A model generated the notes under the pieces. It made no database searches. It worked only from the letters and a program-made list of their open reading frames with translations, and was not told the DNA's origin. The position numbers were made by a program, and so were the translations under genes. Shown piece by piece: positions 3,421-28,855 of a stretch of 32,339 nt of DNA. This DNA comes from a virus: positions 1 through 32,339 of IMG/VR virus record IMGVR_UViG_3300031857_000830; one strand, 5' to 3'. Positions within the stretch are counted from its first letter, which is position 1; each line of letters begins with the position of its first letter.

Positions 3421-5369
3421 TAAGTCAATTGTGTTATTTTATTCAATTGTTCTTCAGATGTTATAATTTTTGGTGTTCCTATTTGTGCTTTTGCCTGCTC
3501 ATAGGTCAATCCAAATCTATCCATAACCATTTGAATTGCTGCTTCTAAATCGTATACACCACTACTTACCGCTTTAACGATTTCGATAATCCCGGTTAAA
3601 CCTCCAACTGTATATTTTAAATCTGCTGGAGATGGTGCATTGCCAGTAGATACTTGTGCATCTGAAATATTAAATATCTTGTTTACAATTGAATCTTTAA
3701 CCTCAATATTCTTTAATTTCTCTGTTGCATATTGTTCCAAAATAGCATACTTCTGCGCCTTGGTTTGATTTATAAAATCCTTATTTTCGGCAATGGCACG
3801 ATCAACAAAATCAAAAATATAAGTGCTTATTATAGCATCTAATTTTGACATCAATCTACTGCTAACTAATAAAGCTTTTTCTTCATCAGTTTTGCCTGAT
3901 GCAGGATCAAGTTCAAATGCATTGCGTAATTTATTTTGCATTTGAATATCATTTGGAAATCGTTTTTTAATAAACTCAAGCTCCATCTCACTTAACACCG
4001 CATCATTCAACGTGCTATCCTTGGCTGCTTTTATCTCTTCTACGATGGTTTGAGAACCTAACACATCAAATGTATTAGGAACGATGCAAATCGGACACAT
4101 ACGTTTTAAATCACTATCATCATATAGGTTACCATATCTCCATTTTGCAACTAAAAAAGATATGCGTTCCATCATCAATGCCAAATTTGTTGCAACGGCA
4201 TAAAATGTGTTATTAGTTTCATCCCGATCGTAAGCCTTTGCAACACCACTTTGAGCAGCAGGTGCGCTTTCTAAAAATTGCATATTTACCGCAGCCAAAG
4301 CACGATAACGCATCTCATTGATACGTTTATCTTGCAACTCGGCTATCTCTGGCTGCTTTTGGATGTAACCCATCGGTGGTGTAGGTGCTGGCACTTCTCC
4401 CATAGATGTCTTCGCAGGTCTAACTCTCAATGTTTCATAAGGAGATAATGGTATCTGACCATTACTGCATCTGCTATTTGTACATGGCACACGTTCGTTT
4501 TCTCGCATTAACCATCCATTACCATTGCAAGTTGGACATTGTTCATCCTGATAAATCCAAACAGTTGAATGTATGTGCTGCGTTATCTCTGCACGTAAGT
4601 CGCTAAACTCGATAGTTGCCACGTTAAGCCATGGCAACATTGCACGAAATACAGATTGATATTCTCGGCCAAGCTCCTCTTCTTCCTCAACAATTCCACC
4701 AATAGTAAAGCCAGGAAATATTCCAAGGTTATGAATTGATTGCTCAATTAACACATACTTGTTTGTTCTGTAATCACGTTTATATTTATTCCAACTATAC
4801 TTATCAACTGAATAATAGACATTGCGGTCATCATCATCTTTGTATACAATTGAGTTGCCTTCATACGAATAAATAATGCGGTCACTATTTATGATGTATG
4901 GTGTAGGTTTAGTATACTCTGTGTCTGATACTTCTTCTTCATTCCATAAGATAATAACGGCATTAACATCTATTACGGCTTGTTTTAAACCAACTTGAAA
5001 AGTCCAGTTAAATAGAGATTTTGATGCAGTAAAATTATAGTTAAGATATACATCTAACTTTTCATCCTTGCTTATTTTAGTAAATTCAGATTGGTCAGGG
5101 AATTTCAACATAAACCCATCTGCACGTTGTATTTTATTTAAAGAATTTAACACTCGGTCAAACACTTCGCTGAATACTGGCTGATATGTTTTCTTGCGAT
5201 ATTCCTTTGCAATGTTATGTTCATTAGGTCTATTTTCATCAATTAATTTATGCGGATATTCATCATCCGAATAAATTAAAAATTGTTCATATTCTTCACT
5301 CTCAATGTGTGGATGTCTAATGATTTCCGTAACAATTCCGGCATCAATAATAGGGAATTTTTTATCCAT
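3420..5369 (-). CDS. Portal protein with an inserted Cys4 motif
   Basis: 649 aa, consistent with a portal: acidic, mixed alpha/beta, upstream of the minor head protein, and with a helical C-terminal half (FLESAPAAQSGVAKAYDRDE, residues about 364-383) of the type that forms the portal stem and crown. At residues 278-301 a cysteine cluster, CPTCNGNG then CTNSRC, gives C278, C281, C296 and C301. This is a probable zinc-binding loop resembling the DnaJ CxxCxGxG repeat, just after the helix TQHIHSTVWIYQDEQ. The motif is not part of the textbook portal fold. The start shares one base with the upstream glycosyltransferase stop. The assignment comes from size, context and helix pattern. Confidence 0.75.
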   Translation of the reverse strand: MDKKFPIIDAGIVTEIIRHPHIESEEYEQFLIYSDDEYPHKLIDENRPNEHNIAKEYRKKTYQPVFSEVFDRVLNSLNKIQRADGFMLKFPDQSEFTKISKDEKLDVYLNYNFTASKSLFNWTFQVGLKQAVIDVNAVIILWNEEEVSDTEYTKPTPYIINSDRIIYSYEGNSIVYKDDDDRNVYYSVDKYSWNKYKRDYRTNKYVLIEQSIHNLGIFPGFTIGGIVEEEEELGREYQSVFRAMLPWLNVATIEFSDLRAEITQHIHSTVWIYQDEQCPTCNGNGWLMRENERVPCTNSRCSNGQIPLSPYETLRVRPAKTSMGEVPAPTPPMGYIQKQPEIAELQDKRINEMRYRALAAVNMQFLESAPAAQSGVAKAYDRDETNNTFYAVATNLALMMERISFLVAKWRYGNLYDDSDLKRMCPICIVPNTFDVLGSQTIVEEIKAAKDSTLNDAVLSEMELEFIKKRFPNDIQMQNKLRNAFELDPASGKTDEEKALLVSSRLMSKLDAIISTYIFDFVDRAIAENKDFINQTKAQKYAILEQYATEKLKNIEVKDSIVNKIFNISDAQVSTGNAPSPADLKYTVGGLTGIIEIVKAVSSGVYDLEAAIQMVMDRFGLTYEQAKAQIGTPKIITSEEQLNKITQLT

Positions 5370-12561: not shown

Positions 12562-12833
12562 GTAATGTATAATATCGCTGATAGCAAACCATTGAGTCCG
12601 CATAAGGCAAGTAAATAAATAATTATATTGACATCTGGTGCAAAGTAAAACCAACCAGCAATACCCCACACCGAAGCCATACAAGGTGGGCAGTCATACA
12701 ATGGTTTGCGAATGTATTCATGCCAATCATCATTGACAAAAGGATATAGCAACATACCAACTCTCGTTAATAAATGAACACCAATAATTACAAGGCTATT
12801 CAGGGCAAGTGCATGGAATAATGACATAATCAT
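12540..12833 (-). CDS. Membrane protein with CPPCM motif
   Basis: About 97 aa. One hydrophobic segment lies near the N-terminus (HALALNSLVIIGVHLL) and two lie in the second half (MASVWGIAGWFYF, IIIYLLALCGLNGLLSAILY), separated by KPLYDCPPCMASVWG. The CPxCM-SVxG arrangement recurs in small membrane proteins of Bacteroidota phages that resemble DUF1360. The cysteine pair could bind metal or be redox-active. The start is uncertain: Met at 12833 or 12827 keeps the overlap with the upstream gene below 40 bases. It sits in the late operon among tail genes, and its role there is unknown. Confidence 0.65.
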   Translation of the reverse strand: MIMSLFHALALNSLVIIGVHLLTRVGMLLYPFVNDDWHEYIRKPLYDCPPCMASVWGIAGWFYFAPDVNIIIYLLALCGLNGLLSAILYITWEHTNE

Positions 12834-25478: not shown

Positions 25479-26267
25479 ATGCGAAGCGAGGGAAAAATAG
25501 AATTGTTTAATGAGGACTGTATGCTAACTATGAAAAGGATAGCATCTGGAACTGTTGATTTAATATTGACTGACCCACCATATAATACTACTCAATGTGA
25601 GTGGGAATACGATATTGATTTAACGGCTTTATGGGCTGAATGGCAAAGGATATTGAAGCCGAATGGAGTAATATGTGTTTTTGCGGATGAACCGTTTACA
25701 AGCCGTTTAATTATGTCAAATTTAGATTGGTTTAAGATTAGAATTACTTGGGATAAAATGACTGGCTCAAACTTTTTGAACGCTAAAAAAATGCCATTAA
25801 AACAAACTGAAGATGTAGTAATTTTTTCAGGCGTGAAAAATGGGCAATACACTTACAACCCGATTTTGACTGATAAACCTAAACACAATATAAGACCTGT
25901 TGGAAATAGAAAGCCAAGTGTAAATAATACTACATACGGACAACACAATGGACAATATTCCACGGATTACGACCCAACAAAAAACTATCCGACAAATTTA
26001 CTTTCAATAATGGCAAAGCAAGATGAATGTAATAGCGTGAACCGATGGCATCCAACTCAAAAACCTACAGAAATTATGCAATGGCTTGTAAAGACATTTA
26101 GCAACCAACACGAAATAGTTTTTGATGGGTATAGTGGAAGCGGAGTAACTGCCATTGCTTGCGAAATTGAAAATAGAAACTTTATAGGAAGTGAACTGAA
26201 TGAGGAATATTATAAAAAAGCATTACAACGAATTAAAGATGAAACGGCACAACTTAAAATCTTTTAA
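25479..26267 (+). CDS. DNA N6-adenine/N4-cytosine methyltransferase (beta class)
   Basis: 262 aa. Catalytic motif IV DLILTDPPYNTT (DPPY 32-35) comes first and the SAM-binding motif I FDGYSGSGVTAIACE (215-222) lies near the C-terminus, the beta-class order; HPTQKP (191-196) is the expected motif X-like segment. The central part (residues 95-185) is the target-recognition region. No restriction endonuclease gene is adjacent, so it is an orphan enzyme, probably protecting phage DNA from host restriction. It sits between endolysin-linked genes and the holin-like gene, with non-coding DNA on both sides. Confidence 0.93.
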   Translation: MRSEGKIELFNEDCMLTMKRIASGTVDLILTDPPYNTTQCEWEYDIDLTALWAEWQRILKPNGVICVFADEPFTSRLIMSNLDWFKIRITWDKMTGSNFLNAKKMPLKQTEDVVIFSGVKNGQYTYNPILTDKPKHNIRPVGNRKPSVNNTTYGQHNGQYSTDYDPTKNYPTNLLSIMAKQDECNSVNRWHPTQKPTEIMQWLVKTFSNQHEIVFDGYSGSGVTAIACEIENRNFIGSELNEEYYKKALQRIKDETAQLKIF

Positions 26268-26412: not shown

Positions 26413-26667
26413 ATGAATCTAAAACAGAAATACCGCAGCCCCGACAACAAGCAACTAAAGAAGATTGCAGACTACTTAATCTATGTTTTGCTGCCATTTA
26501 TTCAAACAAGTTTAGCACTCGCAGAAACGCAAGGTCTAATCACTTTAAAGCAAGCGTTTTGGGGCGGTTTGGCAGCAACATTTTTATTGATTAATACTAA
26601 ATTCTTAACCAAATTCACAACCGAAACACCAACCAGAACTGCGGTTATTGATGGTGATGGGTGCTAA
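26413..26667 (+). CDS. Holin-like small membrane protein
   Basis: 84 aa from ATG 26413. Hydrophobic stretches are IADYLIYVLLPFIQTSLALA and ITLKQAFWGGLAATFLLINT, with a basic N-terminus and a polar C-terminus (TETPTRTAVIDGDGC). The layout resembles small holins or holin regulators. It precedes the spanin-like gene and shares the rightward operon with the M15 endolysin. A longer frame extends upstream into the methyltransferase gene, but this ATG has the A-rich leader and fits the lysis cluster. Confidence 0.7.
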   Translation: MNLKQKYRSPDNKQLKKIADYLIYVLLPFIQTSLALAETQGLITLKQAFWGGLAATFLLINTKFLTKFTTETPTRTAVIDGDGC

Positions 26668-26677
26668 AACAAACAAT

Positions 26678-27244
26678 ATGAAACCACACCACCAACTTAT
26701 AACCTTTGCAGTCTTATGCTTACTGCTAATTATCGGTTTAAATCATTGCGCCAAAGAGAAACCGAAAGTAATCCCATTTGATTACAAAGCAGAAGCCGAA
26801 ATGATGAAAAAACAATTCGGTATAGAACAAGCAATATTGCTCAACCAACTGGAAGCAGCTACCCGAAGACTGCAAGTTGCGAACAATGCAAAAGATTCGA
26901 TTAGAAAGCGTGAAATATCTTTGAGCAACACTAACATAGCTTTGATGAAGAAGTTGCGTAATACGCTGCCAAAAGAGTGCGATACTGTATTTGTTCTATG
27001 TGATGAGATAATCAATGTTAAAGATAGTAGTTATGCAGCCTTGTTTAATGCGTTTCAATTATGTGCTGATGGAAGTAGCATTAAGGATAGTTTGATAACC
27101 ACTTACAAGGCGGAGAATGTTACCGATAGCACGTTGTTGGTAATCAGCAAGCAAGAAACCAAGCAGCAACGCAAAGGTAAAGTAGCAGCGTGGTGTGTTG
27201 CTGGTGCAATGTTTTTAGTTTGGCTTGTTGTGGGATTGAAATAA
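26678..27244 (+). CDS. Spanin-like protein with N- and C-terminal membrane segments
   Basis: 188 aa. An N-terminal hydrophobic anchor (LITFAVLCLLLIIGLNH, then C) is followed by a charged periplasm-type coiled coil (about residues 35-100), a region with a cysteine pair (LPKECDTVFVLCDE), and a second hydrophobic segment at the very C-terminus (VAAWCVAGAMFLVWLVVGL). The N-terminal part resembles i-spanin/Rz proteins. The C-terminal segment is unusual for Rz but would suit a protein linking the two membranes. The N-terminal C is not in a good lipobox. It probably acts in the final step of host lysis. Confidence 0.65.
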   Translation: MKPHHQLITFAVLCLLLIIGLNHCAKEKPKVIPFDYKAEAEMMKKQFGIEQAILLNQLEAATRRLQVANNAKDSIRKREISLSNTNIALMKKLRNTLPKECDTVFVLCDEIINVKDSSYAALFNAFQLCADGSSIKDSLITTYKAENVTDSTLLVISKQETKQQRKGKVAAWCVAGAMFLVWLVVGLK

Positions 27245-27257
27245 ATTAGTATATTTG
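27228..27257 (+). promoter_or_regulatory. Promoter for the C5 methyltransferase leader RNA
   Basis: TTG at 27228-27230 and TATATTTG at 27250-27257 with a 19-base spacer, matching the Bacteroidota consensus. The -33 element lies in the last codons of the spanin-like gene. Predicted start near 27264, immediately before the GTAGGAG arm. Confidence 0.75.
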
Positions 27258-27263
27258 CCACGT

Positions 27264-27343
27264 TGTGTAGGAGCAATATAAAAAAATTTTAACAAAAGCC
27301 TTGACTGGTGCGAACTCCTACTCGCATTAGTTGGGGTTTTTTA
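27264..27343 (+). ncRNA. Structured leader / small RNA before the C5 methyltransferase
   Basis: An 80-base segment from predicted start to U tract, with no ORF. GTAGGAG at 27267-27273, at the 5' end of the predicted RNA, is perfectly complementary to CTCCTAC at 27315-27321, which forms seven of the eight bases in the apical loop of the hairpin at 27299-27336. Pairing would make an H-type pseudoknot across an A/U-rich linker. The hairpin is followed by UUUUUU. The RNA could be an attenuator controlling the downstream methyltransferase or a stand-alone small RNA; sequence cannot separate these. Confidence 0.65.
27294..27342 (+). terminator. Intrinsic terminator/attenuator with 15-bp GC-containing stem
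   Basis: Uninterrupted stem 27299-27313 with 27322-27336 (15 pairs, six of them G-U), extended by one G-U and four A-U pairs into the poly-U tract, loop ACTCCTAC, then TTTTTT at 27337-27342. It lies 14 bases before the methyltransferase ATG, so it would limit that gene's expression unless it is bypassed. Confidence 0.75.
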
Positions 27344-27355
27344 ATTTAAAGAAAT

Positions 27356-28855
27356 ATGAATGTATTAAGTTTATTCGATGGAATGAGTTGTGGGCAACAA
27401 GCTCTTGACCGATTAGGAGTGAAAGTAGACAACTACTTTGCAAGTGAAATTGATAAGTATGCTATTCAGGTAACGATGGCAAATTACCCAAATACGAAAC
27501 AATTAGGCAGCGTTGTTAATGTTGATGGGTATAGTTTACCAAAGATTGATTTACTTATGGGAGGATCGCCTTGTCAAAGTTTTAGTTTTGCAGGTAAACG
27601 CAAAGGAATGTCAACAAAGTGCGAAACCGAAATTCTAACCCTTGAACATTACCTGGAATTGAAAGCGGAGGGTTACGAATTTGAGGGACAATCTTACCTA
27701 TTTTGGGAATACATGCGACTACTTAACGAATGCAAACCTACATACTTTTTGTTGGAGAATGTAGAAATGGGCGAAAAGTGGGAAAAGGTATTATCTAAAG
27801 CCATCGGTGTAAATGGCATACACATTAATTCTGCATTAGTTTCAGCGCAGAATCGTAAGAGAATTTATTGGACTAATATAGGAATGCAGCCAAGCGGTTT
27901 GTTTGGAGATTTGGAATCTATTATAGATCAACCGAAAGATAGAGGGATATTGCTAAAGGATGTTTTAGAAACGGAGGTTGATGAAAAATATTTTTTGAGT
28001 GAGAAAACGATTGCGACAATAACTAGGCACGGAAATAAAATTATTGATGAAAAAGAAAACCCTAAACAAAGTTGCACTATACACGCAAATTATTTTAAGA
28101 TGGGTGGAAGAGACCAACAATACATTGTACACAACACAATGCCACGTTCATCAACAACTGGCAAAGGTGGAACAGGTCATTTAAGTAGAATTGATGGAAA
28201 AACCTATTGCTTGGATACCGGTAATACTAATGCGGTGGAAATAAAAAATAATTACATACAATGGGATAGTTCAGGCAAAGGCAATAATTCACAAGGAGAA
28301 AGAGCATATTTTGAAAATGGTAAAAGTGGAACAATTTCAAGTGGTAGCAAAAATTCGGGTCAAGTTCAACCAAAAGTATTAGTTACTAATGCGATTGAGG
28401 TTAGACAAGTTAAACAAATCAACACCAACAATAAATCTAATGGAGGAACACAACCATACCAACAAGACAGAATTTATGATATTGATGGAATTAGTCCTGC
28501 ATTAAATACTGATGGAAGAAGTCACGCGGTAGAGGTAGTTCTTACAAGCAAAGATAAAAGACTAAAACAAACTATTGATGTAAATAATTTAGTTTATGGC
28601 GAAGTAAAAGCTCTTGATGTTTATAATCAATCAATACACAATAGATATCCAACACTTAAAGACCCTAAACATAATGATAGAGCATTGTTTGATGGTTCAC
28701 GCATCCGCAGACTAACACCAATTGAATGCGAACGCTTACAAACAGTTGCAGATAATTACACCAACCACGTTAGTGATTCACAAAGATATAAGATGTTAGG
28801 AAATGGTTGGACAATAGATGTTATTGCACATATTTTGAAATACGCAAATTTTTAG
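27356..28855 (+). CDS. C5-cytosine DNA methyltransferase
   Basis: 499 aa, complete. Motif I NVLSLFDGMSCG at the N-terminus, motif IV GGSPCQSFSFAG with catalytic C73, motif VI LLENVEM (ENV 134-136), motif VIII QNRKRIYW (165-172), then a long variable region (about 190-440) that includes the target-recognition part and Gly/Ser/Asn-rich stretches, motif IX RRLTPIECERLQ and motif X YKMLGNGWTIDVI. It is longer than typical (about 330-420 aa) because of that variable region. No restriction partner is nearby. It probably modifies phage DNA to evade host restriction. It has its own promoter and attenuator-like leader. Confidence 0.95.
   Translation: MNVLSLFDGMSCGQQALDRLGVKVDNYFASEIDKYAIQVTMANYPNTKQLGSVVNVDGYSLPKIDLLMGGSPCQSFSFAGKRKGMSTKCETEILTLEHYLELKAEGYEFEGQSYLFWEYMRLLNECKPTYFLLENVEMGEKWEKVLSKAIGVNGIHINSALVSAQNRKRIYWTNIGMQPSGLFGDLESIIDQPKDRGILLKDVLETEVDEKYFLSEKTIATITRHGNKIIDEKENPKQSCTIHANYFKMGGRDQQYIVHNTMPRSSTTGKGGTGHLSRIDGKTYCLDTGNTNAVEIKNNYIQWDSSGKGNNSQGERAYFENGKSGTISSGSKNSGQVQPKVLVTNAIEVRQVKQINTNNKSNGGTQPYQQDRIYDIDGISPALNTDGRSHAVEVVLTSKDKRLKQTIDVNNLVYGEVKALDVYNQSIHNRYPTLKDPKHNDRALFDGSRIRRLTPIECERLQTVADNYTNHVSDSQRYKMLGNGWTIDVIAHILKYANF

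Follow-up and report, generated by a model that had tools for sequence, protein, structure and literature searches.

Why should the loop of a terminator hairpin in front of a DNA methyltransferase gene be perfectly complementary to the 5' end of the very RNA that it would end? The locus that raises this question lies in a 32,339-nucleotide stretch of viral DNA, the whole of which we refer to as the window. An initial annotation had described the complementarity as a pseudoknot in an attenuator-like RNA, and proposed that the RNA could either decide, by sensing how accessible its 5' end is, whether the methyltransferase is transcribed, or act in trans on targets containing GUAGGAG.

All features of the leader lie on the plus strand. 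It follows a gene conserved in relatives (26648 to 27244; 198 aa when counted from its earliest possible start), for which no Pfam or PHROG profile match was found, and stands immediately 5' of the methyltransferase gene (27356 to 28855; phrog_116, E 9e-67), as annotated. No ORF of 60 aa or more is listed between 27244 and 27356, in agreement with the claim of an ORF-free unit. The claimed promoter, TTG-N19-TATATTTG, is present as a Bacteroidota-type match at 27228–27257 (TTG at 27228–27230, TATATTTG at 27250–27257), inside the 3' end of the upstream gene. It is followed by a small 5' hairpin, H1 (27262–27277), in which GUUG (27262–27265) pairs with CAAU (27274–27277) around the loop U-GUAGGAG; its pairs are kept in relatives, many of which have a CGUUG/CAACG stem instead, and in the window it is weak on its own (about -1.9 kcal/mol). 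An A-rich linker (27278–27297) joins H1 to the terminator hairpin H2 (27298–27337), whose 16-bp stem (27298–27313 with 27322–27337) carries the loop ACTCCTAC (27314–27321). The folding z-score of this terminator is -4.9, with equally good folds in 0/200 shuffles. The match between GTAGGAG in the H1 loop (arm 1, 27267–27273) and CTCCTAC in the terminator loop (arm 2, 27315–27321) is indeed perfect over seven bases, and within the 32-kb window each arm is found at the leader only. Between the end of the U tract (27337–27342) and the start codon of the methyltransferase are 13 nt. With a further DNA methyltransferase gene at 25479–26267 (phrog_67), the phage carries two such genes within 3.5 kb.

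Homologues of the upstream gene are present in 65 viral loci, and nearly all relatives of this locus retain TANNTTTG, regardless of what comes after it. The same leader with H1 follows in 21 of the 65, an unrelated plain terminator occupies the site in 36, and two keep the terminator and have lost arm 1. One locus (L134) has neither at the site and carries a window-type leader elsewhere in its contig, at 4112; the remaining loci were too short for classification. Across 19 distinct window-type leaders, both arms are invariant while the terminator stem shows compensatory changes in four pairs; all four H1 pairs are kept, one of them alternating between G-C and G-U. The covariation proposed as a check on the fold is seen in part: the terminator stem compensates in close relatives and the arms covary in other families, but within the window subfamily the arms do not change.

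The alleles also differ in what stands behind them. All 21 kissing leaders are followed by a start codon 11–15 nt beyond the U tract, and the interval contains no promoter match. Behind the 36 plain terminators and the two copies without arm 1, the next gene is preceded by a TANNTTTG of its own, or no plus-strand gene lies nearby; one case (L122) is ambiguous. The difference is significant (Fisher p 4e-15), although the alleles are not independent. The genes behind window-type leaders vary, comprising several methyltransferases and assorted other proteins, and in other families the leader often precedes replication genes; the link to the methyltransferase drawn in the initial annotation thus does not hold as a specific one. 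The 36 loci with a plain terminator (among them L106, L107 and L110) carry an alternative leader in that position, in which GTTCAATGTTAGTTA precedes the terminator (AGCCCTTGCAGAAATGTGAGGGCT); this leader is well conserved and has no loop complementarity. L126 and L143 retain the terminator with the CTCCTAC loop and have TTGTGYAAAAGCACAA in place of the GTAGGAG hairpin; in both, the alternative leader stands further downstream, together with a new promoter match.

Since the arms of the window subfamily never vary, evidence for their covariation comes from other families only. We fetched relatives of the Lin1244_N protein as an arm-blind sample, because selection for arms had to be avoided. Read by eye, every leader in this set whose terminator lies directly before the gene has perfectly matched arms. 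In 27 of these leaders, which are rows picked for having a matched pair, the seven kissing pairs are 100% paired, with 21 double-sided cells vs 6.3 in shuffles (0/500). Compensatory change is found in H1, H2 and the kiss alike, and both sides have changed in 10/11 pairs of the H1 stem. Nine leaders with swapped arm order give a similar picture: eight pairs are 100% paired, five of these eight are altered on both sides, and 16 double-sided cells compare with 4.9 in shuffles (0/500). A third architecture adds three further matched arm pairs, so that arm pairs altered on both sides occur in at least three stem-unrelated architectures. Within the arm-blind sets, one family uses the arms GTAGGAG, GTGAGAG, GTCAGAG, GTCGGAG and GTGGTAG, a second uses CTCACTAC, CTCTCGAC, CTTCTCAC, GTTCTCAC and CTCCTTAC, and a third uses CATCGAC, CATCCAC and CTTCGAC, each with its exact complement. 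Phage contigs are interrelated, and these element counts are hence not counts of independent events. Judged by covariation, the tertiary pairing of the two arms is real. This upholds the core of the pseudoknot claim but not its form: in most relatives a small 5' hairpin presents arm 1 in its loop, so the predicted pairing is loop to loop, a kiss, and not a pseudoknot formed with a single strand.

To see how far the design extends, we scanned 1.4 Mb of loci fetched without regard to arms, using folding to find elements that combine a promoter, two hairpins, loop complementarity of at least 7 nt, a terminator and an ATG after the U tract. This returned 69 elements vs 2 with reversed arms, a control chosen because shuffled arms sometimes recreated real ones. 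A separate arm-pattern scan of viral contigs gave at least 120 stretches vs 57 with scrambled arms, counts that alone do not prove enrichment. When hairpins were required on both arms, 51/85 distinct matches qualified (close relatives included) vs 3/50 scrambled ones. A coding-sequence family matching the arm pattern (GTAGGAGTCGCAAAC...) was excluded, as hairpins were absent, and an Algoriphagus match (L168) was rejected because its arms lie 27 nt apart with no terminator in view, within chance expectation. The same arms occur with different stems at other loci, and many phage contigs with unrelated stems repeat the layout of promoter, 5' hairpin, linker, terminator and start codon. The next gene often encodes a Lin1244_N protein, a DUF6291 protein, a primase-polymerase, a helicase or a methyltransferase; named phages have homologues of Lin1244_N and DUF6291 that carry the annotation replication (initiation) protein.

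Kissing leaders also occur in two cultured Flavobacterium phages, where their terminators contain internal loops. In mumin6-1, which is among the Baltic Sea isolates (PMC7077304), two leaders with different arms, located at 12722 and 11684 of L427, precede an endonuclease gene and a gene that is itself followed by helicase and primase genes. In elemoA_11-9C, one leader (GTGAGATG/CATCTCAC) lies upstream of a replication protein. Two kissing leaders, each with its own matched arms, also occur in the contigs L188 (minus strand, 8220 and 10178), L392 (968 and 3916) and L408 (867 and 3917). Cellulophaga phage phi13:2 (L421) has a 9-nt match, CTCTCACAA/TTGTGAGAG, at about 3906 before a DUF6291 gene, with a poor terminator; this is possibly a divergent copy of the leader. 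A blastn search of the elements against named phages gave no convincing match, and a search of 395 Bacteroidota chromosomes for the GTAGGAG form found no true copy. In two Bacteroidota genomes (L338–L341), we observed a palindromic repeat, GTAGGAGCGACC...GATCGCTCCTACGGAGC, that is unrelated to the leader. The initial annotation knew of no named RNA family with this structure, and Rfam 15 bears this out: the window has no match at gathering score, and across 18 loci the only matches are two tRNAs, none of them at the elements. We found no published description of such a leader in the literature, the list of Weinberg 2017 (10.1093/nar/gkx699) lying outside this comparison.

What, then, might the kiss do? 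In 69/75 elements the promoter has the same placement, with H1 a median of 5 nt after the -7 element, suggesting that the RNA begins with H1. RNA polymerase would start at about 27262 in the window, and H1 would for that reason be the first structure to form. The terminator loop would emerge some 40 nt later and pair with the H1 loop. At the U tract, polymerase would then either stop and release a transcript of about 80 nt or continue into the gene just behind the tract. Complementarity is confined to the loops (7–8 nt), which fits a kiss and not a classical antiterminator. The window kiss has 7 bp and an energy of about -9 kcal/mol; kiss energies span a narrow range, and 16/19 arm pairs have exactly four G/C. 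The terminator appears strong both with and without the kiss, and in some compact leaders the linker is short for a fully folded straight stack. Linker and stem length were negatively correlated, which we attribute to stems running on into the A and U tracts; this result was set aside. The sequence supports both hairpins, the kiss, the promoter match, the terminator and the lack of a second promoter match before the gene, and we infer that the kiss alters how often the terminator acts. We lean towards a kiss that permits readthrough (antitermination), because neither the copies without arm 1 nor the sister loci with plain terminators have a gene that depends on readthrough; the opposite sign, with the kiss strengthening termination, may also apply. 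Overall, the leader is probably a cis-acting transcription terminator gated by the kiss, an attenuator controlling the next gene.

Other explanations fit parts of these data. One is that the leader is made for its own sake: termination would yield a small, compact phage RNA of about 80 nt, closed by the kiss, that works through its structure, either binding a protein such as RNA polymerase or withstanding nucleases, and the next gene would merely profit from incomplete termination. Such an RNA would span the start of H1 to the end of the U tract, the kiss would close both loops, and the covariation does say that the fold matters. However, a start codon lies close behind the U tract in 21/21 window-type loci and in most others, a spacing for which an independent RNA gene would have no need, and we consider this explanation unlikely. 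Kissing loops are frequent in antisense control, and the two loops could equally pair between molecules. The leader might then dimerise or bind a phage or host target RNA, the cis kiss being a closed, inactive state. The arms, however, change fast between close relatives yet always match each other, have no second copy in the window, and are not the same in the two leaders that one phage carries. Action in trans, whether on GUAGGAG targets or others, is accordingly disfavoured, and we regard it as distinctly improbable.

The last alternative is that the hairpin merely terminates the upstream gene and that its loop matches arm 1 by chance. A strong hairpin with a U tract does come after that gene, but the promoter match separates most of the gene from the hairpin, and the covariation, together with the recurrence in arm-blind sets, refutes a chance match. 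Both arms are unchanged in relatives while the stem compensates, and the design recurs elsewhere with compensatory arm changes; we therefore give chance hardly any weight and retain the kissing-gated terminator as the preferred reading.

This reading places the leader beside several known systems without matching any of them. It shares with attenuators and riboswitch leaders a promoter, a short structured leader, an intrinsic terminator before the gene and, as predicted here, transcription by readthrough only; by sequence consensus, the terminator stands between promoter and gene with no other promoter between them. In this leader, however, we see no antiterminator that would compete for strands of the terminator stem and no recognisable ligand domain; it is the apical loop of the terminator itself that makes the tertiary contact. 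Purine and guanidine-II riboswitches likewise join two hairpins of one RNA by their loops, but those contacts are short, conserved and accompanied by a ligand, whereas the kiss described here is a freely covarying 7–8 bp with a terminator as one partner. ColE1 RNAI/RNAII and pT181-type plasmid control also use kissing hairpins, and pT181 does so through attenuation upstream of the gene for a replication initiator, but their partner RNAs come from opposite strands, while here both loops lie in one transcript. The put RNA of phage HK022 likewise places two hairpins close to the 5' end of its transcript and influences termination in cis, but at terminators further downstream; in the present leader, one hairpin is the terminator.

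That many otherwise unrelated phages of Bacteroidota keep this design, with loops that differ but always match, suggests a previously unrecorded on/off gate on viral genes for DNA replication and DNA modification. A more general proposal, of a widespread class of phage gates in which a covarying kiss toggles termination during infection and, where a phage carries several gates, each has a separate loop code, is tentative, and we give it slightly less than an even chance. To our knowledge, little is established about the timing of genes in phages of this kind. The leader is a covariation-supported regulatory RNA outside Rfam, common in phages that resemble those of Bacteroidota and often found in front of genes for DNA modification or for the initiation of DNA replication. 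It offers a testable switch in cultured Flavobacterium phages, as well as a naturally occurring collection of kissing terminators that differ in loop code.
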